From assembly GCA_003599885.1 (NCBI GenBank), contig QZKW01000012.1, forward strand, positions 1-64,000: DNA of 64,000 nt, in the 5' to 3' direction. Below, piece after piece: positions 3,728 to 61,556 of this stretch (its first letter is position 1; each line of letters starts with the position of its first letter). The stretch is from Desulfobacteraceae bacterium (lineage in GTDB: Bacteria; Desulfobacterota; Desulfobacteria; Desulfobacterales; Desulfosalsimonadaceae). The notes under the pieces were generated by a model, which worked only from the letters and a program-made list of their open reading frames with translations, did not search any database and had not been told where the DNA came from. Position numbers and translations under genes: made by a program.

Positions 3728-3795
3728 ATTGGCTTTCCTCATTTATTGATAGATATCAATATCAATCGCACCGGTTTAAGTTGCCGACAAAATAA

Positions 3796-43239: not shown

Positions 43240-43962
43240 ATGGCAATTATCGAATGGGAAAAAGATGAAACTGTTGCTGTTATCAAATTAAACAACAGCG
43301 AAAACCGTCAAAATCTTGAATTTGCACAGACCATGTGCCGGGTTCTGGATGAGATCGTAGAGGAACCAAGCATTTCTGCCGTCGTCATCACATCAACTGA
43401 TGAAAAAAGCTGGTCCCTTGGCGTGGATATCAACTGGCTGGGAAAGCAGTTTCAGGATCAGGCCATGGATAACATCAAACTTTTTATGTACGGCATGAAT
43501 GATGTATTTAAAAAATTGCTGCTACTCCCGGTTCCTGTCATTGCATCCATTAACGGGCATGCCTTCGGCAATGGCGCCATCCTGTCATGCGCATGTGATT
43601 TCCGGTTCATGAAATCGGATCGCGGGTATTTCTGTTTTCCGGAAGTGGATCTGGGCATTCCGTTTCTGCCGGGCATGATCGCTTTTGTCCGGAAAGCCAT
43701 TCCGGAATATCAATTCAATGCCATGAAACTGACCGGAAAAAAAGTGGGGGCAGTGGAACTGGCCGAACACCACGTGATTGAAAAAGCCTGCGCCAACTCC
43801 GAAGAAGTGCTTGCGGAATCCCTGGCGTTTGCCAAAACCTTTCAGAAAAAACGCGGAATATTCAAAGAACATAAAAAACGGATGCATCAGCACATTATCC
43901 AGGTAATCGATTCAGAAGATGCGAAATATATCGAACCGCTGTTTTTAATGATTTCAGATTAA
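43240..43962 (+). CDS. Crotonase-family protein, probable delta3-delta2-enoyl-CoA isomerase
   Basis: A 240-residue crotonase-fold protein. The oxyanion-hole segments WSLGVDINWL and SINGHAFGNGA are present. The glutamate usually found after the GG(G) loop in hydratases (Glu144 of rat crotonase) is Ile114 here, while the second glutamate is kept as E135 in CFPEVDLGIPF. A single glutamate at this place is a mark of enoyl-CoA isomerases of the ECI1 type. It may act on unsaturated or branched acyl-CoAs with the enzymes encoded downstream. Substrate unknown. Confidence 0.78.
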   Translation: MAIIEWEKDETVAVIKLNNSENRQNLEFAQTMCRVLDEIVEEPSISAVVITSTDEKSWSLGVDINWLGKQFQDQAMDNIKLFMYGMNDVFKKLLLLPVPVIASINGHAFGNGAILSCACDFRFMKSDRGYFCFPEVDLGIPFLPGMIAFVRKAIPEYQFNAMKLTGKKVGAVELAEHHVIEKACANSEEVLAESLAFAKTFQKKRGIFKEHKKRMHQHIIQVIDSEDAKYIEPLFLMISD

Positions 43963-44042: not shown

Positions 44043-44660
44043 TCAGGCAAAGGCCGTCACATTGATAACCTTCAGGGTTTCTTTGGCGGCCTTTATATAC
44101 TCTTCCCGCTCAAGATTCATCATGGGCCGGAAAAAATTTTCACCGGACACAAAATTGTGGATGGCGTTCATGATAGATAAAACCTTCATTTTGGCGTCCA
44201 CCGGCACATTTTTCCGGTCACTGGCAAGCCCCATGGAATAAGCAATGTCTGAGATGTATTCAGGCACTTTAAAATCAAGAATGCTGCCGTGACGGGTTTT
44301 GGTGAAATACCGGAAAAGGGTCAGGTTGGATATCTCCGGGTTTTCAAAAAGATAATCCGCCATCTCGTCAATGGCTATTTGGATCCGCTCTGAAAGCGGT
44401 TTTCCTTTGATGATTTTCTCCACCTCGATCAGTCTCTGCCGCATGCCTTCAGTGATATCCATTACCACTGCCTCATATAAGTCCCCCTTTTCCCCCCAGT
44501 GATAATACAAAGTGGAGATATCAATATCCACGGCTTTAGCGATCATACGGGTGGTGGTGCCATGAAAACCGTATTCGCCGAATATTTTTCGGGCGGCAGT
44601 GAGGATTCTGGCTTTCATGGAATCCGGATTCTGTTTTGCTTTTTCAAGGGATGATGCCAT
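44043..44660 (-). CDS. TetR-family regulator
   Basis: A 205-residue regulator with N-terminal helix-turn-helix (ILTAARKIFGEYGFHGTTTRMIAKA then DISTLYYHWGEKGDLYEAVV) and a helical ligand domain. It is encoded after the racemase-like gene on the same strand (84 bp gap), so its expression would follow that promoter. A candidate operator is at 45959-45971 in the divergent region. Its role as regulator of the branched-chain locus is inferred from position. Confidence 0.82.
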   Translation of the reverse strand: MASSLEKAKQNPDSMKARILTAARKIFGEYGFHGTTTRMIAKAVDIDISTLYYHWGEKGDLYEAVVMDITEGMRQRLIEVEKIIKGKPLSERIQIAIDEMADYLFENPEISNLTLFRYFTKTRHGSILDFKVPEYISDIAYSMGLASDRKNVPVDAKMKVLSIMNAIHNFVSGENFFRPMMNLEREEYIKAAKETLKVINVTAFA

Positions 44661-44744: not shown

Positions 44745-45893
44745 TTAAATGATTCCGTCTCTGGTGAAAAGCTTTATTTGATCGTCTGAATAACCAAATT
44801 CCATCAGCAAACGGGTTGTGTTCTCACCAAAACCCGGTGGAAGCGTGCACACAGATCCGGGAGTATGGCTGAGTTTGACCGGAACACCTAAAAATTGTTT
44901 ATTCACGCCATTGTCATCCGGTATCTCAACCACCATTTCCCTGGCTTTAAACAAAGGATCATCCAAGGCTTCGTCAAGGGTTTTGACCGGCCCCCAGCAG
45001 ATGTCCTTGCCATCCAATGCCGCCAGCCACTGAGACATTGTTTTTTGTTTGAATTCGTTCCGTAAAAAATCAATGATTTCCTGCCGTCGACCATCATCAT
45101 ACTGCAATGAAATAAATTCCGGCTTTTTAAAATAAGTACAAAGATTTTTCCAGAAACGATTTTCCACCGCACCGATGGAAAGATAACGGCCATCGGACGT
45201 TTCATAGGTGTTGTAACAGGCATACCGGTGGGATAAAAACGAATCCGCCCGGTTTACCGGAAGCCCGGTGAACTGTTTAAGACTCAAGACCAGTGACAAG
45301 AGGCTTAGAGACCCGTCCGTCATTGAAATATCAATATACTGGCCCTTCCCGGTCTGGTGTCTTGCATGCAACGCCAACAGAATACCAATCACTGCGTTCA
45401 TGCCTCCGCCGGCCAGATCTGCGATCTGAATGCCGGGAATGGATGGGGGCCGGCCTTTTTCACCGATGAGATCCAGAACACCGGCAACACTCAGATAATT
45501 GACATCATGACCGGCTTCATTCCTTAAGGGGCCGGTCTGACCGTAGCCTGAAATCGAACAGTAAATAATACCGGGATTCAAAGCCGACAAAGCTTCATAG
45601 TCAACTCCAAGGCGCTGAACAACACCCGGGCGAAACCCTTCAAGAACGATATCCGCCTTCTCCGCCATCTTCAAAAAAATTTCCCGGCCTGCATCCGACT
45701 TCAGATTCAATGTCATGTGTTCCTTGTTTCGCAGTACTGTGGCATTCCCCCCGGCTTCCACTGCGTATCGGCTGTCTTCGATGGCAATGACCCGGGCGCC
45801 ATGGTCTGCCAGAGTCATCGAACAAAAAGGTCCGGGCAAAAGCCGGGATAAATCCAGAACCAGTAATCCACTTAAAGCACCGGGACGGGTCAT
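44745..45893 (-). CDS. Alpha-methylacyl-CoA racemase-like class III CoA-transferase family protein
   Basis: A 382-residue CaiB/BaiF-fold protein. It shows the racemase catalytic pair H129 in NEAGHDVNYLSVAGVL and D159 in IADLAGGGMNAV, equivalent to His126/Asp156 of mycobacterial MCR, and a long LRNKEHMTLNL segment as in AMACR. Racemases of this type epimerise 2-methylacyl-CoAs so the (2S) isomer can enter beta-oxidation. CoA-transferase activity (needing Asp at a different site) is less likely. The start at 45893 follows GGAGGTG; an ATG at 45914 is an alternative. It is divergent from the MaoC-SDR-SCP2 gene. Confidence 0.85.
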   Translation of the reverse strand: MTRPGALSGLLVLDLSRLLPGPFCSMTLADHGARVIAIEDSRYAVEAGGNATVLRNKEHMTLNLKSDAGREIFLKMAEKADIVLEGFRPGVVQRLGVDYEALSALNPGIIYCSISGYGQTGPLRNEAGHDVNYLSVAGVLDLIGEKGRPPSIPGIQIADLAGGGMNAVIGILLALHARHQTGKGQYIDISMTDGSLSLLSLVLSLKQFTGLPVNRADSFLSHRYACYNTYETSDGRYLSIGAVENRFWKNLCTYFKKPEFISLQYDDGRRQEIIDFLRNEFKQKTMSQWLAALDGKDICWGPVKTLDEALDDPLFKAREMVVEIPDDNGVNKQFLGVPVKLSHTPGSVCTLPPGFGENTTRLLMEFGYSDDQIKLFTRDGII

Positions 45894-45958
45894 AACACCT
45901 CCGTATCCTGTCAAAATTCAAATAAATGCATACAGTTTCAAACGATTGTTTCCATCAT

Positions 45959-46401: not shown

Positions 46402-48513
46402 ATGGCGTTAAACCTTGATGCTGTCGGGAAAAAGCTTGGCCCGGTTTCCAAGGAGTATACTTGGAAAGATGTGGTGTTGTATGCTTTGGGCGTCGGTGCC
46501 GGATTCAATGATCTGGACTATTGTTATGAAAAAAACTTAAAAGTCATCCCCACGTTTTCCATTGCCACGATATTTGACTTTCTGTCCCATTATGCGACAA
46601 ACGCCAATATCAACCTGGCCGGGATTCTTCATGGTGAACAGGACCTGATTTTTCACGCGCCCATCCCGCTTGACGGCACGCTGACCACTGAAGGCAAAAT
46701 CACCCATATTTATGACAAAGGGGCTAAAAAAGGCGCGCTCATCATCGGCGAAAGCGAAACCCGACATTCCAGCGGGAAAAAACTGTTCACCAGTATTATG
46801 ACACTTTTCAGCCGGTTTGACGGCGGCTTTGGCGGTGAAAACGCGCCGCAGGAAACCTTTCTTTATCCGGACAGAGCTCCTGACTTTGAAATCAATGAAA
46901 CCCCTTCCCTGGACCAGCCCTTGCTGTACCGGCTTTCCGGCGACGTGTTTCCCCTGCATGTGGACGCTGATTTCGCTAAAATGGCCGGTTTTGAAAAGCC
47001 CATTATGCATGGGTTGTGCACCTACGGTTATTCCTGCCGAGCTCTGATGCAAAGCCTGACCCCCGGTTCGCCGGATAAGGTCCGGCGGTTAAAATGCCGT
47101 TTCTCAAGGCCCCTGATGCCGGGAGACCCCATCACCATCCAGATCTGGAAAACCGGGGATGAACAGGCCATCTGGAAAACCATCAACACCAAAACCGGGG
47201 AGGAAGTCATCACCAACGGTATTTTCGAATTCGGTGATATCCCCAAGGATGAAATCCGTTTTGACGGTCAGGTTGCCGTTATCACCGGCGCAGGCGGCGG
47301 TTTAGGAAGGGTCTACGCTCTGGAACTTGCAAAACGCGGGGCCAAAATCGTGGTCAATGACCTTGGCAGCGCAAGGGACGGTTCGGGCGGCGGGTCCGCC
47401 ACACCCGCACAAAAAGTCGTGGATGAAATCAAGGCTGCCGGGGGCGAAGCGGTCGCCAATTACGACAGCGTGTCAACTCCCGAAGGCGGTGAAAATATCG
47501 TCAAAGCCGCCCTGGAAGCTTTTGGTAAGGTAGACATTCTCATCAATAACGCAGGTATTCTCCGGGACAAAAGTTTTACTAAAATGGACCCTGAAAACTG
47601 GCGGACCGTTCTGGACGTTCATTTAAACGGCGCCTATCATGTTTCCAGACCCGCCTTTAAAGTGATGCGTGAAAAAGGCTATGGCCGCATTGTCATGACC
47701 ACCTCTGCCGCCGGTTTATACGGCAATTTCGGTCAGACCAATTATTCGTCCGCCAAAATGGGTCTGGTGGGGTTGATGAATGCAATGAAACTCGAAGGCA
47801 AAAAATACAACATCAATGTCAATACGGTGGCCCCGCTGGCTGCGTCACGGCTTACCGAAGACATTCTTCCGCCGGAATTGTTTGAAAAAATGAAGCCGGA
47901 ATTTGTGTCTCCGCTGGTGGTGTATCTTTGCTCAACTAAATGCGCTGTTACCGGCAACATCTACAACGCAGGCATGGGGTTCTTTAACCGTGCAGCGGTG
48001 GTGACCGGCCCTGGCACCACCATCGGCAGCGCAGAACACCCCCCGGCCATCGAGGATATTATTGAAAAACACGCCACTGTCGCGTCCCTCAAAAACGGCA
48101 AATTTTATTTTGAACTCAACGAACAGGTGGGAGATCTCATCAACGCCTTCAGTGCGCCGGCCGAGTCAACTACAGCTGAAGCCCCCAAACAGACCTTGAC
48201 CGTGGCTGACATTTTCAGCGCCATGCCGGGATCTTTCAATGCAGCAGGCGCAGCCGGTGCGGACGTGGTCTTTCAATATCATATTTCGGGGCCGGGCGGC
48301 GGAGACTGGAACTGTGTTGTTCAAAACAACTCATGCGCCATCAATCAGGGTATCCATGAAAAGCCTACTTGCACCCTGAAAATGTCGGACAATGATTTTA
48401 TTGACATGATCGGCGGAACGCTTCCGGCCATGAAAGCCTATACATCCGGAAAACTTAAAATCGAAGGGGACATCATGAAATCCCAGCTCATTGAAAAACT
48501 GTTCCGCCGGTAA
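46402..48513 (+). CDS. Multifunctional MaoC hydratase - SDR dehydrogenase - SCP2 protein (MFE-2-like)
   Basis: A 703-residue fusion. Residues 1-280 are a double hot-dog (R)-hydratase 2. The catalytic-motif region reads YRLSGDVFPLHVD, with D181 and H186 kept but Phe183 where family members have Asn. Residues 286-540 are an SDR with TGAGGGLG (295-302), NNAG (382-385), S435, Y448 and K452, closely resembling the (3R)-hydroxyacyl-CoA dehydrogenase of MFE-2. Residues 595-703 are an SCP2 lipid-binding domain. Eukaryotic MFE-2 has the same three parts but with the SDR first. Expected role: hydration and oxidation of 2-enoyl-CoA. The ATG follows AAGGAGGA. Confidence 0.92.
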   Translation: MALNLDAVGKKLGPVSKEYTWKDVVLYALGVGAGFNDLDYCYEKNLKVIPTFSIATIFDFLSHYATNANINLAGILHGEQDLIFHAPIPLDGTLTTEGKITHIYDKGAKKGALIIGESETRHSSGKKLFTSIMTLFSRFDGGFGGENAPQETFLYPDRAPDFEINETPSLDQPLLYRLSGDVFPLHVDADFAKMAGFEKPIMHGLCTYGYSCRALMQSLTPGSPDKVRRLKCRFSRPLMPGDPITIQIWKTGDEQAIWKTINTKTGEEVITNGIFEFGDIPKDEIRFDGQVAVITGAGGGLGRVYALELAKRGAKIVVNDLGSARDGSGGGSATPAQKVVDEIKAAGGEAVANYDSVSTPEGGENIVKAALEAFGKVDILINNAGILRDKSFTKMDPENWRTVLDVHLNGAYHVSRPAFKVMREKGYGRIVMTTSAAGLYGNFGQTNYSSAKMGLVGLMNAMKLEGKKYNINVNTVAPLAASRLTEDILPPELFEKMKPEFVSPLVVYLCSTKCAVTGNIYNAGMGFFNRAAVVTGPGTTIGSAEHPPAIEDIIEKHATVASLKNGKFYFELNEQVGDLINAFSAPAESTTAEAPKQTLTVADIFSAMPGSFNAAGAAGADVVFQYHISGPGGGDWNCVVQNNSCAINQGIHEKPTCTLKMSDNDFIDMIGGTLPAMKAYTSGKLKIEGDIMKSQLIEKLFRR
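47257..47931 (+). repeat. SDR module copy 1
   Basis: Codes for residues 286-510 of the MaoC fusion. It is highly similar at protein and DNA level to 50033-50707, 2.8 kb downstream. Both keep GLGRVYALELA, NNAGILRDKSF, TSAAGLYGNFGQTNYSSAK and NTVAPLA. Confidence 0.8.
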
Positions 48514-48559: not shown

Positions 48560-51307
48560 ATGATTGGAATCACATCTTACGGCGCGTATATCCCCCGCCT
48601 CAGGTTAAACCGCATGTCCATTTTTCAGAGCATGGGATGGTTTGCGCCCGCCATCATCATGGTGGCCCAGGGCGAACGCTCCATGTGCAACTGGGATGAG
48701 GATGCCATTACCATGGCTGTTGCCGCTTCCAGGGATTGCCTGAAAGGAAAAAACAAACTGCTGCTTGACGGTCTGAATCTGGCGTCCACCACACTGCCCT
48801 TTGCCGACCGGCAGAACGCCGGCATCGTTTCCACAGCCCTCAATCTCCGCAGCGACATCCTCACATCGGATTTTACTTCCTCCCAGCGGGCCGGCACCAA
48901 TGCGTTGCTGGCGGCCCTTGAATCTGTAAAAAGCGGAGACCGGCACAACGTTCTGGTGACCGCCGCCGACAAGCGTGAAACCAAACCCGCTTATTTTTAT
49001 GAAATGTGGTTCGGGGATGGGGCAGCCTCCCTGATGGTCGGCGATTCAGATGTTATTGCTGAATACAAGGGGGCCTATTCGGTTTCCTATGATTTTGTGG
49101 ACCATTATCGCGGTGCGTTTAAAAAATACGACTACAACTGGGAAGAACGGTGGGTGCGCGATGAAGGCTATTCCAAAATCATCCCTGAGGCAGTCAATGG
49201 CTTACTCAATAAGCTTAGCATCGGCATAAAAGATGTGACTAAGCTGATCTATCCCTGCTTCTTCAAAGCGGAACACAGCAATATCGCCAAAAAAGTGGGC
49301 GCATCCAAAGACCAGGTCATGGACAATATGCATGAAGTCTGCGGAGAAACCGGCACCGCCCATGCCCTGCTCATGCTGGCCGCCGCACTGGACACCGCCA
49401 AACCCGGAGATAAAATCCTGGTGGCAGGATTCGGGCAGGGGTGCAACGCGTTTTTATTTGAAGTCACGGAAAATATCCTCCAAATATCAGACCGCAACCG
49501 TTTCCAACGCACTTTGGATAACAAGGAAACCACAGAAAATTACCTGAAATTCCTGAAATTCCGGGGGCTGATTCATCCGGAAATGGGGATCCGGGCCGAA
49601 GCGCCTACCCAGACCGCCGTCACCGTCCTCTGGCGCCGGCGTAAAATGCTGCTGGGCCTTGTGGGAGGAAAATGCCGGGAATGCGGCACGACGCAATTTC
49701 CCAAAACCGAAGTCTGCGTCAATCCCGAATGCGTGGCCCACCGGTCCCAGGATGAATATGAATTTGCGGACATTCCGGCTAAAATAAAGACATTCACCGG
49801 CGACCTGCTGGCCGTATCCGTTGACCCGCCCCATAAATACGGCATGATCCAGTTTGAAGGCGGAGGCCGGTTTATGGCGGATTTCACGGACTGTAAAATG
49901 GAAGACATCAAAGTCGGTCTTCCGGTGCAGATGGTCTTCCGCAAGCGCACGGATGATGAAGAACGCGGATTTGTGAATTATTTCTGGAAAGCGGTTCCGG
50001 TTCCCGGCGCCCTGGCTGAGATGAACAAAATCAACTTTGAAGGCCGCGTCGCCATCATTACCGGTGCAGGCGGCGGTTTGGGTAGGGTTTATGCCCTTGA
50101 GCTGGCCAGACGCGGAGCAAGCATTGTAGTCAATGATCTGGGGGGGGCCAGAGACGGCTCAGGCCTTGGGTCCACCACTCCTGCACAAAAAGTGGTGGAA
50201 GAAATCGAAACCCTCGGCGGAAAAGCGGTCGCCAATTATGACAATGTCGCAACACCGGAAGGCGGCGAAAATATTGTTAAAACCGCCATGACAGCATTCG
50301 GTCGGGTGGATATTGTCATTAATAACGCCGGAATTCTGCGGGACAAAAGTTTTCTTAAAATGGATCCGGAAAACTGGAATGCAGTTATGAACGTGCATTT
50401 AAACGGCGCTTATAATGTCACCAAGCCTGCATTTGCCATCATGCGTGAAAACGGTTATGGCCGGATTGTCATGACGACATCCGCGGCCGGACTATACGGC
50501 AATTTCGGTCAGACCAACTATTCGTCCGCCAAAATGGCCTTGGTGGGTCTCATGAACACTTTAAAACTCGAAGGCCAGAAATATAATATACGGGTCAATA
50601 CGGTCGCCCCTCTGGCCGGCTCCCGGCTTACCGAAGACATCATGCCTCCGGAAATTTTCGACAAAATGAAACCAGAATTTGTCTCACCCATGGTTTTATA
50701 CCTGTGCAGTGAAGAATGCACGGATTCCGGCCAGATTTTCAACGCGGGCATGGGCTATTTCAACCGGGCAGCCATCCTGACCGGCCCCGGCGTCCAGCTC
50801 GGTGATGCCGACCATCCGCCTACCCCCGAACAGATCAGCGAAAACATGGAAAAAATCAACGATATGGAAGGGGCCAAGGAATTTTCCGATCTAAATGCTG
50901 CCATGTTTGATCTCATGACGCCAAAAGCCACAGACGCCAAGCCTCCAGTGGATTCAGCGTCAGCCCCCCCGGCTTCCAGCGGTCTGACAGTCCAGAACGT
51001 GTTCGACAACATGGCGTCTGCCTTCCAGCCGGGCGCTGCTCAGGGCGTGAATGTGGTGTTTGGGTACAATATTTCCGGACCCACCGGAGGTCGTTGGAGC
51101 ATCACCGTTAAGGACGGGTCATGCGTCGTCGCCTCCGGCAAGGCCGACAAACCCACCTGCACATTAAACATTAAGGATACGGATTTCCTGGATATGATTT
51201 CCGGAAAACTTGATCCCATGAAAGCCTTCACATCCGGCAAACTGACCATTGACGGCGATGTCATGAAATCCCAGTTGATCGGAAAACTTTTTAAAATGGC
51301 CCGTTAA
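48560..51307 (+). CDS. Four-domain HMG-CoA-synthase-like - DUF35 - SDR - SCP2 fusion
   Basis: A 915-residue protein. Residues 1-340 follow the thiolase-superfamily/HMG-CoA synthase fold (YGAYIPRLRLNRMSI, GDGAASLMVGD, AGFGQGCNAF). The nucleophile position in the archaeal C-K-A-G-T motif reads Q109-R-A-G-T, and the partner His and Glu also appear replaced, so condensing activity is doubtful. Residues 350-480 are DUF35: a zinc ribbon (C372, C375, C386, C391) and an OB-fold. Residues 492-760 are an MFE-2-type SDR (TGAGGGLG 501-508, S641, Y654, K658). Residues 805-915 are SCP2. The ATG at 48560 follows AAGGAG; a frame open from 48491 would overlap the upstream gene. It is followed by a thiolase gene. 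Confidence 0.88.
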   Translation: MIGITSYGAYIPRLRLNRMSIFQSMGWFAPAIIMVAQGERSMCNWDEDAITMAVAASRDCLKGKNKLLLDGLNLASTTLPFADRQNAGIVSTALNLRSDILTSDFTSSQRAGTNALLAALESVKSGDRHNVLVTAADKRETKPAYFYEMWFGDGAASLMVGDSDVIAEYKGAYSVSYDFVDHYRGAFKKYDYNWEERWVRDEGYSKIIPEAVNGLLNKLSIGIKDVTKLIYPCFFKAEHSNIAKKVGASKDQVMDNMHEVCGETGTAHALLMLAAALDTAKPGDKILVAGFGQGCNAFLFEVTENILQISDRNRFQRTLDNKETTENYLKFLKFRGLIHPEMGIRAEAPTQTAVTVLWRRRKMLLGLVGGKCRECGTTQFPKTEVCVNPECVAHRSQDEYEFADIPAKIKTFTGDLLAVSVDPPHKYGMIQFEGGGRFMADFTDCKMEDIKVGLPVQMVFRKRTDDEERGFVNYFWKAVPVPGALAEMNKINFEGRVAIITGAGGGLGRVYALELARRGASIVVNDLGGARDGSGLGSTTPAQKVVEEIETLGGKAVANYDNVATPEGGENIVKTAMTAFGRVDIVINNAGILRDKSFLKMDPENWNAVMNVHLNGAYNVTKPAFAIMRENGYGRIVMTTSAAGLYGNFGQTNYSSAKMALVGLMNTLKLEGQKYNIRVNTVAPLAGSRLTEDIMPPEIFDKMKPEFVSPMVLYLCSEECTDSGQIFNAGMGYFNRAAILTGPGVQLGDADHPPTPEQISENMEKINDMEGAKEFSDLNAAMFDLMTPKATDAKPPVDSASAPPASSGLTVQNVFDNMASAFQPGAAQGVNVVFGYNISGPTGGRWSITVKDGSCVVASGKADKPTCTLNIKDTDFLDMISGKLDPMKAFTSGKLTIDGDVMKSQLIGKLFKMAR
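50033..50707 (+). repeat. SDR module copy 2
   Basis: Codes for residues 492-716 of the HMGCS-DUF35 fusion and is the duplicate of 47257-47931. The linked SCP2 ends are also alike (AYTSGKLKIEGDIMKSQLI versus AFTSGKLTIDGDVMKSQLI). Confidence 0.8.
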
Positions 51308-51366
51308 AAATATCCGGCTTAAATTTTCTGGCAAATAATCGCCATACAGCATCAGGAGGAATTACC

Positions 51367-52572
51367 ATGGCTACAGGAATAAAAGACAAAGTTGCGATCA
51401 TCGGCATGGGCTGCACCAAATTCGGAGAACGATGGGATGTTGGCGCTGAAGAACTTATGCTTGAGGCATATGAAGAATGCCTGAAAGACGCAGGTATTGA
51501 ACAAAACGACATCGGAGCCGCCTGGTTCGGGACCTGCATGGACGAGGTTAATGTGGGCAAAACCGCCATGCCGCTTGCCACCACCCTCCGGCTCCCCATG
51601 ATTCCGGTAACCCGGGTGGAAAATTACTGCGCCACCGGAACCGAAGCCTTCCGGGGCGCGTGTTATGCAGTGGCATCCGGCGCCTATGACATCTGCCTGG
51701 CTCTGGGTGTGGAAAAATTAAAAGACACGGGTTACGGTGGTTTGCCGGGCGGCGGGTCCAGCACGGGCTCCCTGCTCTGGCAATGGTGGCCGAACCTGAC
51801 CGCACCCGGCTCCTTTGCCCAGCTTGCATCCGCCTATTGTGCCAAGTACAAAGTCAAGGACCAGGATCTGAAGCGGGCCATCGCCCATATATCAGCCAAA
51901 AGTCACGCCAATGGCGTTTTGAATCCCAAGGCCCATCTTCAGAAAAAAGTGACCGAAGACCAGATTATGGCATCCCCCATCATCGCCCACCCGCTCGGAC
52001 TGTTTGATTGCTGCGGCGTCAGCGACGGATCGGCCTGCGCCATTGTCACCACTCCGGAAATCGCCAAAAAACTGGGTAAAAAAGACTTTGTCACGGTCAA
52101 GGCCCTTCAACTGGCCTTAAGCAGCGGCCAGGAAACCGCCTTTAACGAGTGGGACGGGGACCATTTCATGACCACCACCCATTGCAGCAAAAAAGCCTAT
52201 GCGGAGGCCGGGGTCACCGATCCCCGGAAAGAAATCAGCATGATGGAAGTTCATGACTGTTTTTCCATCACGGAATTCGTCACCTATGAGGATTTGCACA
52301 TTTCCGAGCGGGGTAAGGCGATTAAGGACATAATGGACGGGTTCTATGATCTGGACGGCGGGGTTCCATGCCAGGTGGACGGCGGCCTGAAATGCTTCGG
52401 CCATCCTATCGGCGCATCCGGATTGCGGATGCTCTATGAAATGTATCTCCAGCTTCACGGCAGGGCCGACAAACGCCAGCTTGAAAATCCCAAACTGGGG
52501 TTAACCCACAACCTGGGCGGGTTCCCGTTCCAGAATATTTGCAGTATATCCATTATCGGAAAATACGAATAA
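51367..52572 (+). CDS. SCPx-like thiolase
   Basis: A 401-residue thiolase-superfamily protein of the SCPx/archaeal acetoacetyl-CoA thiolase type. It has nucleophile C88 in VENYCATGTEAFRGA, H296 in MMEVHDCFSITE and H346 in CFGHPIGASG. The C-terminal glycine loop is altered (THNLGGFPFQN). Thiolases of this type cleave 3-oxoacyl-CoA; the mammalian SCPx enzyme handles 2-methyl-branched substrates and releases propionyl-CoA. Its N-terminal partner protein here carries a DUF35, which in several systems is essential for such thiolase-like enzymes. It is 59 bp after the four-domain fusion. Confidence 0.88.
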   Translation: MATGIKDKVAIIGMGCTKFGERWDVGAEELMLEAYEECLKDAGIEQNDIGAAWFGTCMDEVNVGKTAMPLATTLRLPMIPVTRVENYCATGTEAFRGACYAVASGAYDICLALGVEKLKDTGYGGLPGGGSSTGSLLWQWWPNLTAPGSFAQLASAYCAKYKVKDQDLKRAIAHISAKSHANGVLNPKAHLQKKVTEDQIMASPIIAHPLGLFDCCGVSDGSACAIVTTPEIAKKLGKKDFVTVKALQLALSSGQETAFNEWDGDHFMTTTHCSKKAYAEAGVTDPRKEISMMEVHDCFSITEFVTYEDLHISERGKAIKDIMDGFYDLDGGVPCQVDGGLKCFGHPIGASGLRMLYEMYLQLHGRADKRQLENPKLGLTHNLGGFPFQNICSISIIGKYE

Positions 52573-52679: not shown

Positions 52680-53591
52680 TTAATATTTAAGCGCCACACC
52701 GCCCTCCACCACATGCCGGTCATATTCGTATTGATCAATATTGGAATTGGCGTGAATAAATGAATAATTTGTGTAAAGCCCCACGTGGGTGGTGAACTGA
52801 TATACCATATCAAGGCCCGCAACAACCATATTGTCTGACCGTTTATCCGTGTGCAGGGGATTCATATCATATTCCGACAGACGCGCGTCATAATCCGTAT
52901 GCTGATAGTCAAGGGACAGGCGCACCCGGCTTTTGTTCTGGAAAAAATACAGGTAGGCGCAGCCCCCCCCAAGGGATTCCCCGTCTTCATCGGTATTGAC
53001 GTCATCCCGATCATCAATCAGCGCGCCAATGCCATAGAGGGCCACCGCCTGACTGGTTTCCGGAATTAAATACGTCACTGTGGGCGCAAGGGAATACCGC
53101 TGATAATCTCTTTTACCCGCTTCCATGGCATAATTAAATGTGGTCGGCAGGCTGTAAACAAACGGGCCGTTATTGTACTGGGGCTCCAGTGAAACGCTCT
53201 GGTCAATCACATCATACTGGTCAAGATTCTTCCCATCAACCTGATGAAAATCCGCATAACCGCTGTAATCCATCCGCAGCCCCATATTCCCTTCCATTGG
53301 CGCCTGCCATCCGGCATTTAGCGTTGTGGCCATACCCGTGCTGCTTTCGTCATCCCCGGTGCCGGAAGAGGACCCTACACGGGAATCATAAAAGCCGCCG
53401 ATCCGAAAGTCTGCGTTAAACGGTGAAACATTGTCTTTCATCTGCTGAACCCGGTTTTCGATGCCGCCCTTCCCCACCGGGGAAGCGCTCCGTGACGGAG
53501 CAGAGCATCCTCACCCAGCGGCCCAGGCGTTGATGGAAGGGTGAAGAATGAAACATGCCAGGATAGTGGCAATAAATAACCGTAATTTCAC
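52680..53591 (-). CDS. Outer-membrane beta-barrel protein interrupted by an in-frame UGA
   Basis: From a GTG at 53591 with AAAGGAG upstream, 26 codons encode a clear signal peptide (basic start MKLRLF, hydrophobic core, AWAAG). A TGA follows at 53513-53511. The frame then stays open for 276 codons to 52680. Residues after the TGA begin Gly-Cys-Ser. The body is a predicted barrel with alternating strands and an aromatic end (YDRHVVEGGVALKY). A 265-residue product could start from a GTG at 53477 but would lack export. The gap may be a pseudogene mutation, a read error or, less likely, selenocysteine. Function unknown. Confidence 0.65.
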
Positions 53592-53876: not shown

Positions 53877-55052
53877 ATGTTGCCTGATTTTTTTGAGTTT
53901 TACAATCCCACTAAAGTCGTGTACGAAGCCGGTGTTGCGACTGATTTAAAGCCCGAACTGGATATTATCGGCATCAAAAAATATTTTATCGTATCCGATC
54001 ATGTGATCAACAATCTGGGTTTTGTGCAGAAGGTCGCAGACGGATTGGCCGAAGCCGGGTGTGAAGTGACGGGTGTTTACCTTGAAGTCAAGCAGGACGC
54101 GCGACTCAACGATGTGAAATTGTGTTTGGCGCAGGCACAGGCATCCGGCGCGGAAGGCCTTATCTCCATCGGCGGCGGCAGCGTCATTGATACGGCCAAA
54201 GCAGTGAACATTCTGCTTTCAGAAGGCGGAGATCTGGTAGACGATTATTCCGGGGCTCACACCCTGACCCGGCCCCTGAAACCTCATGTGGTGATTCCCA
54301 CTACCGCCGGAACAGGCAGCGAAGTGACGATGATCTCAGTCATCTATGATGAAGACAACAAGGAAAAACTGGCTTTCGTGGATAAATTCCTGCTTCCGAA
54401 TCTGGCGGTTCTGGATCCGGAAATGACCCTTTCCCTTCCACCGAAACTGACTGCCGCCACCGGAATGGACGCCCTCACGCATGCAGTGGAAGCCTATGTG
54501 GGCACACAGAATTCACCGGTTTCCGACGCGTTTGCTGAAGGCGCCATCCGGCTCATTATGCAACATCTCGTCAACGCTACAAAAGACGGCTCTGACGTGG
54601 AAGCCAGGGGCGGCCAATTGATCGCCGCCACCATGGCCGGCATTGCCTTCTCCCATTCCATGGTAGGCTGTATTCACGGGATGGCCCATGCAACCGGCGC
54701 TCTTTACCGTGTGCCTCACGGAGTTGCGAACGGGATCCTCCTGCCTTTCGGACTGGAATATAACTTTGATGAAATCGCTGAAAAACTCGCCCGGCTGGCT
54801 CCGGTCATGGGGGAGGACTGTTGCGGGTTGTCCGATGAAGAAGCCGCCCGGCTGGTAATTGCCGCCATCCGGAAACTTTCCGGACAGCTCAATGAATTGG
54901 GAGCCCTGCCCTTGCGTTTAAGAGATGTAGGTGTTCCCGAAGACGGACTGGCGGCCATTGCAGAAGGGGCAGTCAATGACGGCTCCTCTTTTTACAATCC
55001 ACGGGAAGTGGATGCAGAAGAATTATTACCGTACCTTCAGAACGCATATTAA
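53877..55052 (+). CDS. Iron-containing (group III) alcohol dehydrogenase
   Basis: A 391-residue enzyme. The nucleotide-binding GGGSVIDTAKAV and PTTAGTGSEVT motifs are present. Metal ligands are D198 and H202 in GMDALTHAVEAY, H267 in CIHGMAHA and H281 in VPHGVAN. It interconverts primary alcohols and aldehydes with NAD(P). Start at 53877 follows AAGGAG. It heads a three-gene unit with an SCP2 protein and an aldehyde:ferredoxin oxidoreductase, suggesting aldehyde turnover linked to the adjacent acyl-CoA locus. Confidence 0.93.
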   Translation: MLPDFFEFYNPTKVVYEAGVATDLKPELDIIGIKKYFIVSDHVINNLGFVQKVADGLAEAGCEVTGVYLEVKQDARLNDVKLCLAQAQASGAEGLISIGGGSVIDTAKAVNILLSEGGDLVDDYSGAHTLTRPLKPHVVIPTTAGTGSEVTMISVIYDEDNKEKLAFVDKFLLPNLAVLDPEMTLSLPPKLTAATGMDALTHAVEAYVGTQNSPVSDAFAEGAIRLIMQHLVNATKDGSDVEARGGQLIAATMAGIAFSHSMVGCIHGMAHATGALYRVPHGVANGILLPFGLEYNFDEIAEKLARLAPVMGEDCCGLSDEEAARLVIAAIRKLSGQLNELGALPLRLRDVGVPEDGLAAIAEGAVNDGSSFYNPREVDAEELLPYLQNAY

Positions 55053-55077: not shown

Positions 55078-55515
55078 ATGGGAATGTTCAAAACTACCGA
55101 AGAATTTGAAAAAGTTATTGTGGGTTTTTTTCAATTGGTCGGGAACACACCGATTATCGCCGACAAACTGCTGGAATCGAAAATGGTCATTCGCTTCACC
55201 TATACGGATCCGGACCTTGTGGTGGTGGTGGATTGCGCCGGGGAAAAGACAGAGGTCAGACCCCATGATACGGAAACCAAAGCGGTGGTTGAAATGACCA
55301 TGTCTTCGGACATCGCCCACCGGTTCTGGTTCGGCATGGTCAATCTGACCAAAGCCCTTACCCGAAAAGAAATGGTGGCCAAAGGCCCCATCCCGAAAGT
55401 CTTAAAACTCCTTCCGGCCATTAAACCGTCATATGCCATGTATCCCCAGTATCTGGACGCCAATGGATTCGGACAATACAACATCACCAAGGCATATACG
55501 CCGCCGACAGCATAA
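55078..55515 (+). CDS. SCP2 sterol-binding domain protein
   Basis: A 145-residue stand-alone SCP2-type lipid-binding protein (LLESKMVIRFTYTDPDLVVVVD, VVEMTMSSDIAHRFWFGMVNLTKALTRKEM). The ligand pocket of this fold holds hydrophobic acyl or sterol-like molecules, or acyl-CoA. It lies 25 bp after the alcohol dehydrogenase and 11 bp before the aldehyde oxidoreductase. It is distant from the SCP2 ends of the two fusions, so it is not just a split copy. Confidence 0.85.
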   Translation: MGMFKTTEEFEKVIVGFFQLVGNTPIIADKLLESKMVIRFTYTDPDLVVVVDCAGEKTEVRPHDTETKAVVEMTMSSDIAHRFWFGMVNLTKALTRKEMVAKGPIPKVLKLLPAIKPSYAMYPQYLDANGFGQYNITKAYTPPTA

Positions 55516-55526
55516 AGGAGACCATT

Positions 55527-57401
55527 ATGGGCGGTTATGCAGGACAAATTCTTTATGTGAATCTGACTTCCGGGGCCATTGAAAAAAAACCGCTGGATAT
55601 GGATTTTGCCAGAAAGCACATTGGCGGGCTCGGATTTGGGGCAACCATCTATCTCGATCTCATTAAAAACCATCCGGTTGATTTTGACCCTCTCTCTGAA
55701 TTAAATCCTTTTGTACTCATGACCGGGCCGCTCACCGGCATGAAAATGAACGGGGTTGCCCGGTGGACTGTTTGTTCGAAATCCCCGCTCACCGGATTTT
55801 ACGGGGACAGCAATGTGGGTGGTTTTTTCGGTGCGCAACTCAAATTTGCCGGCTATGACGGTATCGTGATCACCGGCAAGGCGGCGGTCCCTTCTTACCT
55901 TTATATTAATGATGACATTGTAGAAATCCGAACCGCTGAACCCTACTGGGGCAAAGATGTCTATACGGTAACGGATGCACTTAAAGAAGACTTAAAAGAA
56001 GGCCAGAAATCCGGTCAGGCGCTTGTTATCGGTCCGGCGGGTGAGCGCATGGTCAAGTTTGCCTCCATTATCAACAATAAAGGCCACGCAGCAGGCCGCA
56101 CCGGTATGGGGGCGGTTTGGGGTTCGAAACAACTCAAAGCCATCTATGTGAACGGCACGGGAAAAATCAAAATCGCCAAACCGGAAGCGCTCGATGAGCT
56201 GCGCGCTGAACTCAAAGAACTTTATGCGGACAGCATCGGCATCATGGCCCTTCATTCCGCAGGAACAGCAACGCATATGGATGTCGGCATTATCGGCGGG
56301 GATATCCCGATTAAAAACTGGCAGCAGACCGAATGGGACGACATCGACGATATCGGACCCACAGTCATTGAAGAAAAGATATTTGCGGGCCATAAAACCT
56401 GTTTTGGATGCGGCGTGGCATGTAAAAAAAGCGCGGAAGTCAAAGAAGGTCCCTTTCAGATGGAAAAAGGCCCCGGCCCTGAATACGAAACCATCGCTAC
56501 TTTTGGTTCCATGTGCCTGAATTCCAACATCGAGTCCATCGCCAAAGCCAATGAAATCTGTAATCGTTACGGCATGGACACCATCACCTGCGGATCCACC
56601 ATCGCGTTTGCCATTGAATGCTTTGAAAACGGTTTGATTACCGAAAAAGACACGGATGGGTTGCGTCTAACCTGGGGCAATTCCGATGCCATCGTTAAAA
56701 TGACGGAAAAAATTGGAAAACAGGAAGGATTTGGTGCGATTTTAAGCCTTGGCAGCGCAAAAGCCGCAGATCATATCGGCGGCATTGCACGGGATTTTTT
56801 AACCACGGTCAAGGGACTGGAAGCACCCATGCATGACCCCCGAAGCGCCCACGGCTATGGTCTGGCCTACGCTGTCTCACCCAGGGGTGCGTGCCATGAA
56901 GCAAGCCTGACCTTTGAAGCTGAAGGCGGCTTGATCTTTATCCCGGAAATCCCCGAGCTGTCAGCGGATCTGCCCGAAGGCAGTGAAGACCGGGCCCAGC
57001 TTAATGTGGCCTGTCAGGACTACGGCATGTTCTTTTCCAACTGTGCGATCTTCTGCAACCTCGGCGGCTCTCCTCTCAACGCCACCCAGGCCATTGACAT
57101 GGTCAACCATGTGACGGGGTTTGACTACACGCTGGATGAGATACTGAAAATCGGCAGGCGGTTATGGTATTTAAAACGGGGACTTACCAACTTGTTCGGC
57201 GCAAGAGCCAAAGACGACCGGCTCCCCAACCGTTTGATGACCGTTCTTGAAGCCGGCCCCACGGAAGGCAGTGTCCCGGACATGGACCGGATGCTGGCTG
57301 AGTTTTATGAATTACGAGGCTTTAACGCCGAGGGTGTTCCTGAAAAACAGATACTCGAAAGCGTCGGACTGCCGGAACTGGCAGGCTTGCTGCATCTCTA
57401 A
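55527..57401 (+). CDS. Tungsten aldehyde:ferredoxin oxidoreductase
   Basis: A 624-residue AOR-family enzyme, oxidising aldehydes to acids with ferredoxin at a tungstopterin. The [4Fe-4S] ligands are C292, C295, C299 (CFGCGVAC) and a C-terminal cysteine, C506 or C510 in NCAIFCNLGG. Pterin motifs include GLGFGATIYLDL, AGRTGMGAVWGSK and DPRSAHGYGLAYAVSPRG. The length is typical. It is last in the ADH-SCP2-AOR unit. It could remove aldehydes formed by a retro-aldol step, or reduce acids to aldehydes. Confidence 0.93.
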   Translation: MGGYAGQILYVNLTSGAIEKKPLDMDFARKHIGGLGFGATIYLDLIKNHPVDFDPLSELNPFVLMTGPLTGMKMNGVARWTVCSKSPLTGFYGDSNVGGFFGAQLKFAGYDGIVITGKAAVPSYLYINDDIVEIRTAEPYWGKDVYTVTDALKEDLKEGQKSGQALVIGPAGERMVKFASIINNKGHAAGRTGMGAVWGSKQLKAIYVNGTGKIKIAKPEALDELRAELKELYADSIGIMALHSAGTATHMDVGIIGGDIPIKNWQQTEWDDIDDIGPTVIEEKIFAGHKTCFGCGVACKKSAEVKEGPFQMEKGPGPEYETIATFGSMCLNSNIESIAKANEICNRYGMDTITCGSTIAFAIECFENGLITEKDTDGLRLTWGNSDAIVKMTEKIGKQEGFGAILSLGSAKAADHIGGIARDFLTTVKGLEAPMHDPRSAHGYGLAYAVSPRGACHEASLTFEAEGGLIFIPEIPELSADLPEGSEDRAQLNVACQDYGMFFSNCAIFCNLGGSPLNATQAIDMVNHVTGFDYTLDEILKIGRRLWYLKRGLTNLFGARAKDDRLPNRLMTVLEAGPTEGSVPDMDRMLAEFYELRGFNAEGVPEKQILESVGLPELAGLLHL

Positions 57402-58298: not shown

Positions 58299-59150
58299 AT
58301 GAACCCATCTGAAACGAAGGGAAACTTTATTTCCGGAAACGGTGTTTCCATCTTCTACAGACACCGATCTGCAACCTCTGAGCGCGCCAGATTGGTCCTT
58401 TCCCATGGTTTGGGCGAGCATTCTGGGAGATACAGCCATGTGATTGATCGCATGGCTGACATGGGCATATCCGTCTGGGCCCTTGATCATCAGGGCCATG
58501 GACAAAGCGGCGGCAACCGGGGCCATATCGAACGCTTTGAACTGTATCTGGATGATCTGAAACAAGTTATCGACATGGCAAAAAAGAATTTGCCGGATGG
58601 CATGAAGTGTTTCCTGCTGGGGCACAGCATGGGCGGCCTGATCGTACTTCGTTTTGCCGAAATATATAATGGTTTTATCGACGGGGTGATCGCCTCGTCG
58701 CCGGGGCTCGCGCCTGCCATTAAAATCCCAGTGGTCAAGGGGGGTGCCGCAAAATTTTTATCAAAAATCTGGCCGTCCCTGACTTTCGACAATGAACTGG
58801 ATACTTCCCAATTAAGCCATGATTTGGATGTTGTTCAGGAGTATATTGATGATCCCCTCGTCAACCGGAGAATCAGCGCCAGATGGTTTACGGAGTTTTT
58901 GTCCGCTATGGAAGCCACAAACACCGCTGCTGAAAAAATCCAAATTCCTACGCTCATACAGGTGGCCGGGGCAGACCGGATTGTGGACCCCGGCGCATCA
59001 AAAACATTTTTCAATTCCCTGACCACCAAAGACAAAACCCTTTTCATCTATGATGATTTATATCATGAAATTTACAATGAAGTGAACACTGACAGAGAAA
59101 AGGTGCTGAACGACCTTTCGCAATGGGCGGAACACCAAATTCAAAATTAA
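58299..59150 (+). CDS. Alpha/beta hydrolase, monoacylglycerol lipase-like
   Basis: A 283-residue PldB/MGL-type serine hydrolase. The oxyanion segment is SHGLGEHSGRY, the nucleophile S110 lies in GHSMGG, the acid in AGADRIVDPGAS and the histidine in YHEIYNE. No signal peptide, so a cytoplasmic lipase or lysophospholipase is likely. Downstream genes also handle lipids. Confidence 0.88.
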   Translation: MNPSETKGNFISGNGVSIFYRHRSATSERARLVLSHGLGEHSGRYSHVIDRMADMGISVWALDHQGHGQSGGNRGHIERFELYLDDLKQVIDMAKKNLPDGMKCFLLGHSMGGLIVLRFAEIYNGFIDGVIASSPGLAPAIKIPVVKGGAAKFLSKIWPSLTFDNELDTSQLSHDLDVVQEYIDDPLVNRRISARWFTEFLSAMEATNTAAEKIQIPTLIQVAGADRIVDPGASKTFFNSLTTKDKTLFIYDDLYHEIYNEVNTDREKVLNDLSQWAEHQIQN

Positions 59151-59189: not shown

Positions 59190-60305
59190 ATGAACTTAAA
59201 ACCTCAAGTTGTTTACCGGTATACCCAGAACATATCCATATTTCTTCCCGGAATTTTTCTCGTCTTGTTCATGTTAGTAACTGTATTTGCCGATCATTCA
59301 GAAGCAGCAGTGTCTTCTGAAGAAACCAAAACCGGCGATGTGTCTGTCGAAGCAGAACCAGATACCTTCGGCCTCTATCTTGAAAACGATTATTTCGCCC
59401 ATTCTGACGGGGGCTACACCAGCGGTCTGAAATTGTCATGGAGTTCAGGGCTACATGACGAGTATCCTCAATATGCATGGCCCCACCGCTGGCTGTATCC
59501 GCTCATCAAACATATACCTTTTGAAAAAAAGCCCGATCTGAAACGCAATATCACCTTTGCCCTGGGACAAAATATTTTTACTCCGGAGGACATCGATTCC
59601 GAAGAAGTGGTTGAAGATGACCGGCCTTATGCCGGCGTCACCTATCTTTCAATGGGATTTCACACCCGCAAGGACCGGTCAATGGATTCAGTGGAAATGT
59701 TGCTTGGACTGGTCGGTCCCAGTTCCGGCGCTGAAGAATGCCAGAAAGCGGTTCATCGCGTGTTTGACGATATCCAGCCCAACGGATGGGACAATCAATT
59801 AAACAATGAAGCCATCATAGATCTGGTATATGAACACAAAAAGAAAATAAAGCGCCCTGATCCCAATGGCGGGTTTGGATATGATGTTATTCTTAACACC
59901 GGCGGCGGCATCGGAAATGCGCTGACCTTTTACAATCTGGGGCTGATGTTTCGTACAGGATGGAATATTCCAAATGATTTCGGAATTATGCCAATCCGGC
60001 CCATCAGTTCCTTCAATGGGGCGATGGCCCATTCCGGCAGCGGGATTGCTTCGGACTTAGGGGTCCAGTTTTTCGTTTCAATCGAAGGAAGAGCTGTTTT
60101 TCAGAATATCTTTTTAGACGGGAACACGTTCACGGACAGTCACAGTGTCGATAAAAAACCAATGGTGGGCGACCTGATGACCGGCGTCAATGTCAACATG
60201 GGACGTGGCCAGCTCAGTTTTGCCCTGGTAAAACGTTCCAAGGAATTTGAAACCCAGAATGAGCCCCAGGAATTCGCCAGCATCAACCTTTCTTATGCCT
60301 ATTAA
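59190..60305 (+). CDS. LpxR-like lipid A deacylase (DUF2219)
   Basis: A 371-residue outer-membrane barrel. Residues 18-40 are a hydrophobic signal. The LpxR-type site begins N66-D67 in YLENDYF and continues HSDGGYTSGLKLSW; the probable catalytic histidine lies in SMGFHTRKD. Barrel strands end in LSYAY. LpxR enzymes remove the 3'-acyloxyacyl group of lipid A using calcium. Kdo and Lpt genes at 17-21 kb show that LPS is made. Confidence 0.82.
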   Translation: MNLKPQVVYRYTQNISIFLPGIFLVLFMLVTVFADHSEAAVSSEETKTGDVSVEAEPDTFGLYLENDYFAHSDGGYTSGLKLSWSSGLHDEYPQYAWPHRWLYPLIKHIPFEKKPDLKRNITFALGQNIFTPEDIDSEEVVEDDRPYAGVTYLSMGFHTRKDRSMDSVEMLLGLVGPSSGAEECQKAVHRVFDDIQPNGWDNQLNNEAIIDLVYEHKKKIKRPDPNGGFGYDVILNTGGGIGNALTFYNLGLMFRTGWNIPNDFGIMPIRPISSFNGAMAHSGSGIASDLGVQFFVSIEGRAVFQNIFLDGNTFTDSHSVDKKPMVGDLMTGVNVNMGRGQLSFALVKRSKEFETQNEPQEFASINLSYAY

Positions 60306-60412
60306 CTCTTCATATTTTTTCAAAAACCGCTCGGATGTATTGAGTTCAATCTGCGATCAGACCCAAACCCACTTAAAACCCGCGCCAACCAAAATTAAAC
60401 AAGGAGAAAAAA

Positions 60413-61477: not shown

Positions 61478-61500
61478 CTAATTTATCATAGATTGACTTT

Positions 61501-61530
61501 GCATCAGGCGGGTACGCGTCCGCCTGATGC
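61501..61530 (+). terminator. Hairpin after the GDSL gene
   Basis: A perfect 11-bp stem GCATCAGGCGG with CCGCCTGATGC around GTACGCGT. No U-run. An in-frame ATG of the next gene (61527) lies inside it, which argues for a later start there. Confidence 0.5.
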
Positions 61531-61556
61531 AATCCATGAGCCCGAGCCAAACAAAA

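Follow-up and report, generated by a model that had tools for sequence, protein, structure and literature searches.

We analysed a window of 64,000 nucleotides from a Desulfobacteraceae bacterium (GenBank assembly GCA_003599885.1, contig QZKW01000012.1, positions 1 to 64,000), in which one open reading frame (ORF) encodes a fusion protein of 915 residues. The ORF lies on the plus strand and runs uninterrupted from an ATG at 48560 to a stop codon ending at 51307, with an AAGGAG ribosome-binding site six bases 5' of the start. A reading of the sequence alone (hereafter the sequence-only reading) had proposed that this chain joins an HMG-CoA-synthase-like (HMGCS-like) domain, a DUF35 domain, an MFE-2-type SDR and an SCP2 domain in that order, and the ORF, Pfam, NCBIfam and the predicted structure all agree with it. 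Pfam matches above the gathering scores were ACP_syn_III_C (residues 218-296, 2.4e-8), zf-ChsH2 (367-391, 1.1e-5), OB_ChsH2_C (420-461, 2.5e-7), adh_short (496-684, 2.1e-42) and SCP2 (825-912, 1.6e-18), and the NCBIfam HMGCS model PRK04262 matched residues 1-338 (3.5e-58) with 197 bits, under the model's 244-bit cut-off.

An AlphaFold2 prediction of the fusion from 38 sequences gave a mean pLDDT of 76.1 and a pTM of 0.56, and a separate model of the two-domain HMGCS-DUF35 part a pTM of 0.79. Structure comparison of the predicted fusion, in which the matches listed cover mainly residues 1-477 and hardly reach SCP2, revealed an HMGCS fold at the N-terminus: residues from about 1 to 346 matched the archaeal HMGCS 6esq_I with Z 42.1 and PhlA 9skh_C with Z 41.0, and residues 489-732 matched the rat MFE-2 dehydrogenase 1gz6_A with Z 32.6 at 53% identity. 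That the N-terminal half is akin to the HMGCS and DUF35 proteins of archaea, also part of the sequence-only reading, holds in both sequence and fold.

Alignment with 6esq places T77, Q109 and P232 of the fusion at the positions of the Glu, Cys and His that we take to be the catalytic three of HMGCS. Excerpts of PMC6392133 give Cys and Glu as HMGCS catalytic residues. Homologues came from two sample sets, set A holding 34 regions picked from matches in relatives' genomes and set B the best 80 of 578 relatives among named genome records, which leans to close relatives; the sets share some genomes, and duplicates were removed for the neighbour counts, the tree and the SDR comparison. The alignment of the HMGCS part, in which a few duplicates were kept, has 116 rows, 66 fused (window included) and 50 two-domain. 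At the Cys position the fused rows carry Q (47), L (14), V (2), E (1), X (1) or a gap (1), and the two-domain rows L (24), Q (14), I (4), M (3), T (2), A, N or S (1 each). At the Glu position 64 fused rows carry T and two a gap, and the two-domain rows carry T (43), L (4), V (2) or A (1); at the His position P stands in 65 fused rows and A in one, and the two-domain rows carry P (43), S (3), N, Y, A or D (1 each). Wherever a letter can be read, the catalytic Glu, Cys or His stands at its own position in 0 of the 116 rows, making the known HMGCS chemistry impossible in any readable row. A working HMG-CoA-synthase site is therefore unsupported, all three catalytic positions being replaced here and in every readable homologue, and the HMGCS-like part is a predicted pseudo-enzyme whose HMG-CoA synthase catalytic residues have been replaced. 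Adjoining the lost catalytic His, C233 is C in 66/66 fused and 45/50 two-domain rows.

Mean pairwise identity across 38 sequences was 67.7% for the HMGCS-like part, 73.3% for the SDR, 70.7% for DUF35 and 58.5% for SCP2, and fell to 17.0% in the linker before SCP2. An HMGCS-like part with a dead site that is yet conserved, as a whole, to near the level of the SDR fits a structural role. The first linker (residues 339-356) is conserved at 75.7% and has low confidence in both predicted models; it may become ordered on a partner.

Each of the four zinc-ribbon cysteines of DUF35 (C372, C375, C386 and C391) is C in 66/66 fused rows, and S641, Y654 and K658 of the SDR are invariant in 38/38 aligned fusions. 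The SDR part matches the MFE-2 dehydrogenase 1zbq with an E value of 3.1e-95 and carries an Asp after the second strand (NDLG), which we take to be typical of NAD+-linked SDR enzymes. Within its own genome the fusion is the sole match to the HMGCS-DUF35 part, and the SDR-SCP2 part has one close paralogue, the directly upstream gene, at 65%; other SDR matches reach at most 34%. Signs of gene conversion between the two neighbouring SDRs were seen in 5/43 distinct loci (L057, L097, L101, L112 and L120), where the SDR of the fusion is nearest to that of its own neighbour when compared with the other 84 SDRs. Identity to the neighbour is 86% in L097 and 87% in L101, and the lead is only about 2 points in L112 and L120; in L097 the pair is 93-100% identical across the first 210 residues and drops sharply thereafter. 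The pair in the window, at 71%, has no such sign.

The thiolase gene that the sequence-only reading placed next door is present at 51367-52572, with an AGGAGG ribosome-binding site at 51354-51359 (Table 1), and NCBIfam names its product an acetyl-CoA acetyltransferase (NF004810, 707 bits, cut-off 403). In residue counts from which duplicates between the sample sets were not removed, here as for the hydratase and racemase below, C88 is present in 103/104 thiolase rows and gapped in one, H296 present in 100 and gapped in four, and H346 present in 99 and gapped in five; the first letter of the motif HDCF is H in 100 of the 104, with four gaps. What the sequence-only reading overlooked is that the gene before the fusion also encodes a fused protein, of hydratase-2, SDR and SCP2, whose SDR is a paralogue, that SCP2 is not universal and that some relatives have no second SDR. 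This upstream gene (46402-48513) holds both SDR and hydratase-2 in one chain, with hydratase D181 and H186 in 61/62 rows (one gap). Further upstream, a 'CaiB' gene that is CoA_transf_3 in Pfam finds alpha-methylacyl-CoA racemases (1.5e-60) as its nearest solved structures, with CoA-transferases next (3e-51); its NCBIfam matches are CoA-transferase-type models and one CoA isomerase only, all under cut-off. Its H136, D166 and E251, which align with the active-site His, Asp and Glu of the M. tuberculosis racemase (H126, D156 and E241), are kept in 30/30 rows (28 distinct), two-domain loci included. By these matches, 44745-45914 encodes a racemase-like protein, nearest to alpha-methylacyl-CoA racemase among solved structures. 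Judged by their residues, intact SDR, thiolase and hydratase-2 enzymes thus stand in an operon-like row beside an HMGCS-like/DUF35 part whose HMGCS site is lost.

Table 1. Coordinates of the fusion, its parts and the neighbouring genes in the window
Feature	Coordinates	Strand	Basis
Enoyl-CoA hydratase/isomerase-family protein	43240..43962	+	Pfam; kept in close relatives
TetR-type regulator	44043..44660	-	Pfam
Alpha-methylacyl-CoA-racemase-like protein, CoA-transferase family III	44745..45914	-	Pfam, structure relatives; H136, D166, E251
Hydratase-2/SDR/SCP2 fusion, 703 residues, MFE-2-like with other domain order	46402..48513	+	Pfam, alignment
Four-domain fusion protein, 915 residues	48560..51307	+	Open frame, ribosome-binding site, domain matches
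HMGCS-like part (predicted pseudo-enzyme), residues 1-338	48560..49573	+	T77, Q109, P232 at catalytic Glu, Cys, His positions
DUF35 part, residues 357-481, zinc ribbon and OB fold	49628..50002	+	Pfam; C372, C375, C386, C391
MFE-2-type SDR part, residues 489-790	50024..50929	+	Pfam, structure relatives; S641, Y654, K658
SCP2 part, residues 809-912, behind variable linker	50984..51295	+	Pfam, conservation profile
SCP2-thiolase-like thiolase, 401 residues	51367..52572	+	NCBIfam, structure relatives; C88, H296 (HDCF), H346
Iron-containing alcohol dehydrogenase	53877..55052	+	Pfam; close relatives of window only
Stand-alone SCP2 protein	55078..55515	+	Pfam
Aldehyde:ferredoxin oxidoreductase	55527..57401	+	Pfam

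The HMGCS-DUF35 part was matched in 41/60 relatives, in 151/389 genomes at class level and in 115/297 at phylum level. At least 91 of the 389 genomes (own excluded) have an open frame of at least 600 residues, at least 64 of them of 850 or more, at least 21 of 700-849 and at least 6 of 600-699, where short frames may reflect contig ends. By title, fused records among the best 80 of 578 belong to Desulfobacteraceae, Desulfobacterales, Desulfosarcina, Desulfatibacillum, Desulfomonile, Desulfohalobiaceae, Syntrophales, Syntrophobacterales and Smithella, or are labelled merely Deltaproteobacteria, Proteobacteria or Thermodesulfobacteriota; two-domain records in the same 80 additionally include Chloroflexi, Nitrospirae, Myxococcales, Spirochaetes, Alphaproteobacteria, Rhodoferax and Desulfovirgula.

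Among 110 distinct homologous ORFs (61 fused, 49 two-domain), 52 of the fused are complete, truncated ORFs being left out, and SCP2 is present in 42/52. The identical domain order in open frames of many genomes, these 52 included, excludes chance, misassembly and a local frameshift, the last being the explanation that the sequence-only reading had itself raised (two genes in close relatives, joined by a frameshift here). Broken copies do occur: L141 is split in two frames within DUF35, and in L085 the SDR match ends after 40 residues with no thiolase behind. Two further candidates were rejected. Viral origin found no footing, as 0 of 13 pattern matches among viral contigs was a relative, and a thiolase joined to the scaffold in G479 (frames of 878 and 1218 residues) resolved into upstream extensions of the open frame.

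Leaving out loci with less than 1,200 bases upstream or 700 downstream, we found the thiolase directly 3' in 51/52 fused loci, the miss being the interrupted L085, and in 38/43 two-domain loci. The hydratase-2/SDR gene lies directly 5' in 46/49 fused and 5/43 two-domain loci; the fused misses are L074, where the contig starts inside the gene, L102, where called ORFs overlap, and L126, which has SDR-SCP2 with no hydratase part found beside it. Wider counts covered 8 kb around 30 fused and 20 two-domain loci with at least 5 kb on both sides: hydratase-2 is present in 29/30 fused and 5/20 two-domain loci, TetR in 23/30 and 4/20, and a separate SDR of at least 55% in 6/20 two-domain loci. In L047, L051, L055 and L057 the thiolase is followed by one or two genes for acyl-CoA dehydrogenases, and L044, L045 and L046 have a large one placed after the thiolase and before the alcohol dehydrogenase, with the naming based on Pfam for one gene of each kind.

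A midpoint-rooted tree from a quick search, built on the HMGCS-DUF35 part, places all 61 fused rows, window included, in one 71-row group with support 84, together with ten two-domain rows. Four of these ten stop at a contig end (L094, L113, L123, L127) and L141 is frame-split, leaving L093, L118, L133 and two of L111 as unfused. Eight label changes are required on the tree, and strong branch support makes at least five of them unavoidable, so the fusion may have been gained or lost repeatedly. In some unfused loci equivalent functions are spread over separate genes: L172 has genes for racemase-like, HMGCS-DUF35, thiolase, MaoC (Pfam) and SDR (69%) proteins, and L174 has AMP-ligase-like, HMGCS-DUF35, thiolase, SDR (37%) and hydratase-2 (41%) genes and two acyl-CoA-dehydrogenase-like genes (49%, 35%); L063 and L059 resemble this layout. 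The fusion therefore unites functions that elsewhere lie side by side. In a Myxococcales locus (L121:2792 onward), a two-domain HMGCS-DUF35 protein and a thiolase accompany a separate 804-residue protein that matches SDR, SCP2 and hydratase-2, so that these parts are joined there in another way. The architecture is real, widespread and made of known parts. As the sequence-only reading had supposed, we found no paper on it in the literature searched, a weak absence given few subscription papers and no preprints; as far as the searches reached, it is undescribed.

Other genes of the window were noted in passing. Between thiolase and alcohol dehydrogenase, 52680-53477 (minus strand) has no Pfam match and by eye the look of an outer-membrane barrel, and it holds this place in close relatives. 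An alpha/beta-hydrolase (lipase-like, Hydrolase_4 family) lies at 58299-59150, and look-alikes judged by eye occur near the module in 7/34 set-A loci (L040, L041, L048, L050, L054, L056, L058). After the cluster, 59190-62303 holds genes for an LpxR-type outer-membrane protein, a GDSL lipase and an acyl-ACP thioesterase (Pfam). Among housekeeping-type genes, 33107-34471 is presumably a transposase-like ORF.

Taken together, the gene set points to the fusion as the dehydrogenase-and-scaffold chain of a complex for the last two steps of beta-oxidation, probably of 2-methyl-branched acyl-CoAs, a proposal for which we judge the chances to be about even. The upstream hydratase-2/SDR/SCP2 protein would convert enoyl-CoA to 3R-hydroxyacyl-CoA, which either its own SDR or that of the fusion would oxidise with NAD+ to 3-oxoacyl-CoA. 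The thiolase of the adjoining gene, docked through DUF35 onto the dead HMGCS-like part, would cut this product, with the HMGCS-like part acting as scaffold and cavity wall in a PhlA-like role and SCP2, on its flexible tether, holding or presenting the hydrophobic acyl-CoA. In this model we infer that the parts form a physical complex, in which direction the reaction runs, that the 3-oxo intermediate is passed along, that SCP2 acts as a carrier and that the substrate is branched. In its favour speak the conserved gene order, the kept thiolase, hydratase and racemase residues, the HDCF motif, the equivalent functions in unfused loci and the acyl-CoA dehydrogenases beside the module in 16/30 fused loci. 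Racemase, hydratase-2, MFE-2-type SDR, SCP2 and SCP2-type thiolase make up the peroxisomal branched-chain set. The racemase-like gene in the cluster is what argues for 2-methyl-branched substrates, and it lends support to the branched 3-oxo- and 3-hydroxyacyl-CoAs guessed at in the sequence-only reading; such a substrate would yield propionyl-CoA, in parallel to peroxisomal AMACR/MFE-2/SCPx. What we take to be a methylmalonyl-CoA mutase-like gene at 1601-3742 could accept propionyl-CoA; it lies 45 kb from the cluster, and genes of this kind are common in such bacteria.

Several observations weigh against this model. Neighbours that it would use are only partly present within 8 kb: the racemase-like gene in 14/30 fused (13 at 50% identity or more) and 5/20 two-domain loci, and acyl-CoA dehydrogenase in 16/30 and 11/20. 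Alcohol dehydrogenase and aldehyde:ferredoxin oxidoreductase are each found in 9/30 fused and 0/20 two-domain loci, and are therefore not core but an addition in the window's relatives, where they may point to an alcohol precursor. SCP2 is missing in 10/52 complete fused ORFs, one of them interrupted (L052, L053, L054 and L056 form one group in the tree), and the HMGCS-DUF35 protein of a Syntrophus record (L093) lacks the SDR-SCP2 part, which makes the second SDR dispensable. For such racemases excerpts of PMC6776118 propose a role in alkane degradation, namely methylalkylsuccinate epimerisation in n-alkane degraders. The same complex and chemistry might form a beta-oxidation module specialised for acyl-CoAs that are straight or otherwise bulky, or for CoA esters that arise after a hydrocarbon is activated; the racemase-like protein would then either work on esters of the alkylsuccinyl type or have no link to the module. 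Desulfosarcina alkanivorans (raw loci L086 and L152) has both a fused and a two-domain locus, which counts in favour of this alternative. Among the glycyl-radical-type genes of the window's own genome, five of six PFL-like matches were searched, and no benzyl- or alkylsuccinate synthase name was among the NCBIfam matches listed, the coverage of such a model by NCBIfam being uncertain. The gene set nevertheless matches the peroxisomal branched-chain set, and we regard another substrate as somewhat unlikely.

The remaining alternatives concern the chemistry. A biosynthetic or acyl-transfer complex like PhlABC or MucABC, with a thiolase that carries out condensations or acyl transfers and an SDR that reduces what it forms, would suit an HMGCS-like part whose nearest relatives by sequence and by fold are PhlA and archaeal HMGCS, and a thiolase named by NCBIfam as an acetyltransferase. 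We consider it improbable, as the acyl-CoA dehydrogenases, hydratase-2 and racemase-like genes alongside have a catabolic look, as do the alcohol and aldehyde genes in relatives of the window, the cluster genes scanned included none recognised as polyketide-type, and the NDLG Asp of the SDR presumably marks an NAD+-linked enzyme. The HMGCS-like part might instead have a chemistry of its own, either through C233, with its near-universal conservation, or by decarboxylation through the Gln that is commonest at the Cys position of fused rows; KSQ domains decarboxylate with Gln there. This seems very improbable, however, since the letters at that position vary: fused rows also have L, V and E, and in two-domain rows L prevails, which leaves no fixed catalytic residue in place of Cys, and C233 aligns one residue past the HMGCS His and not at the nucleophile. 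That the thiolase is a retro-aldolase acting on 3-hydroxyacyl-CoA is suggested by Ltp2 and Sal, which excerpts of PMC12329534 describe as thiolase-fold proteins that bind a DUF35 domain and bear the motifs YDHF or YDCY. The thiolase here, however, has HDCF in place of these motifs and keeps C88 and H346 in every row with a letter, and an aldolase needs no 3-hydroxyacyl-CoA dehydrogenase, yet two SDR parts exist; we find this barely credible.

Beyond the locus, the branched-chain model extends to a broader proposal that we hold only tentatively, namely that anaerobic bacteria possess a counterpart of peroxisomal 2-methyl-branched beta-oxidation, in which a dead HMGCS fold would have turned into a scaffold that bears the dehydrogenase and ties a lipid carrier to the thiolase, letting the 3-oxo intermediate be handed on unreleased. 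With equal reserve we would count racemase, acyl-CoA dehydrogenase, MFE-2 and SCP2-type thiolase as its members. The fusion of this sulfate-reducer-like bacterium, beside enzymes that would cut branched lipids, may be a bacterial counterpart of the human peroxisomal pathway. It unites two enzyme worlds that no paper we found pairs, pseudo-HMGCS/DUF35/thiolase scaffolds and MFE-2/SCP2 branched-lipid enzymes. If the substrate reading is true, it would be a marker for anaerobic branched-carbon turnover, and may indicate a route by which sulfate reducers reach isoprenoid or sterol-like carbon. As a two-gene system, it also bears on the role of a catalytically dead HMGCS fold and on channelling by DUF35 complexes, which PMC12329534, in the excerpts available, leaves as an open question.

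Among known systems, MFE-2/D-bifunctional protein (1gz6, 1zbq, 2et6) shares an SDR 49-53% identical to the rat enzyme and a C-terminal SCP2, with hydratase-2 in the neighbouring gene. The fusion differs in having HMGCS-like/DUF35 parts instead of hydratase-2, for which its chain has no Pfam match, so it is not a full MFE-2, and the neighbour has the order hydratase-2, SDR, SCP2. SCPx likewise has a parallel in a thiolase related to SCP2-thiolases beside an SCP2 part, but here thiolase and SCP2 are encoded separately and lie on two chains, so this is not a single-chain SCPx. The benzoylsuccinyl-CoA thiolase BbsAB (7pxp) combines a DUF35-type subunit with a related thiolase (E 2.8e-40), but our thiolase scores 141 bits against the 750-bit cut-off of the BbsB model. 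The separate SDRs BbsCD belong to the BbsAB pathway, and we know of no HMGCS-like or SCP2 part in BbsAB. The steroid complexes Ltp2/ChsH2-DUF35 and Sal/Shy-DUF35, as far as the excerpts describe them, pair a thiolase-fold enzyme with a DUF35 partner in the catabolism of bulky CoA esters, but the thiolase here lacks the aldolase motif, and their DUF35 is fused to a hydratase and not to an HMGCS-like part.

The archaeal acetoacetyl-CoA thiolase/HMGCS/DUF35 complex (6esq) shares three protein folds with the system and gives the best N-terminal fold match, but the HMGCS catalytic residues are replaced in the fusion, and the thiolase is still a separate gene, the rest being fused. In this complex and in PhlABC, according to excerpts of PMC12329534, DUF35 links HMGCS or PhlA to the thiolase. 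Excerpts of PMC6392133 report that in PhlABC the thiolase-like subunit alone is catalytic and that PhlA has neither the Cys nor the Glu. PhlABC (5m3k, 5mg5, 9skh) and MucABC (9vbo, 9vbt; MucA Z 36.7) thus share with our system an HMGCS fold without catalytic Cys and Glu, a DUF35 partner and a thiolase-like catalytic subunit. They differ in consisting of separate chains, whereas HMGCS-like, DUF35, SDR and SCP2 parts form one chain here, and PhlABC transfers an acyl group to a phenolic acceptor, whereas the gene set around the fusion looks catabolic. By its residues, the HMGCS-like part resembles the PhlABC scaffold more closely than a working archaeal HMGCS.

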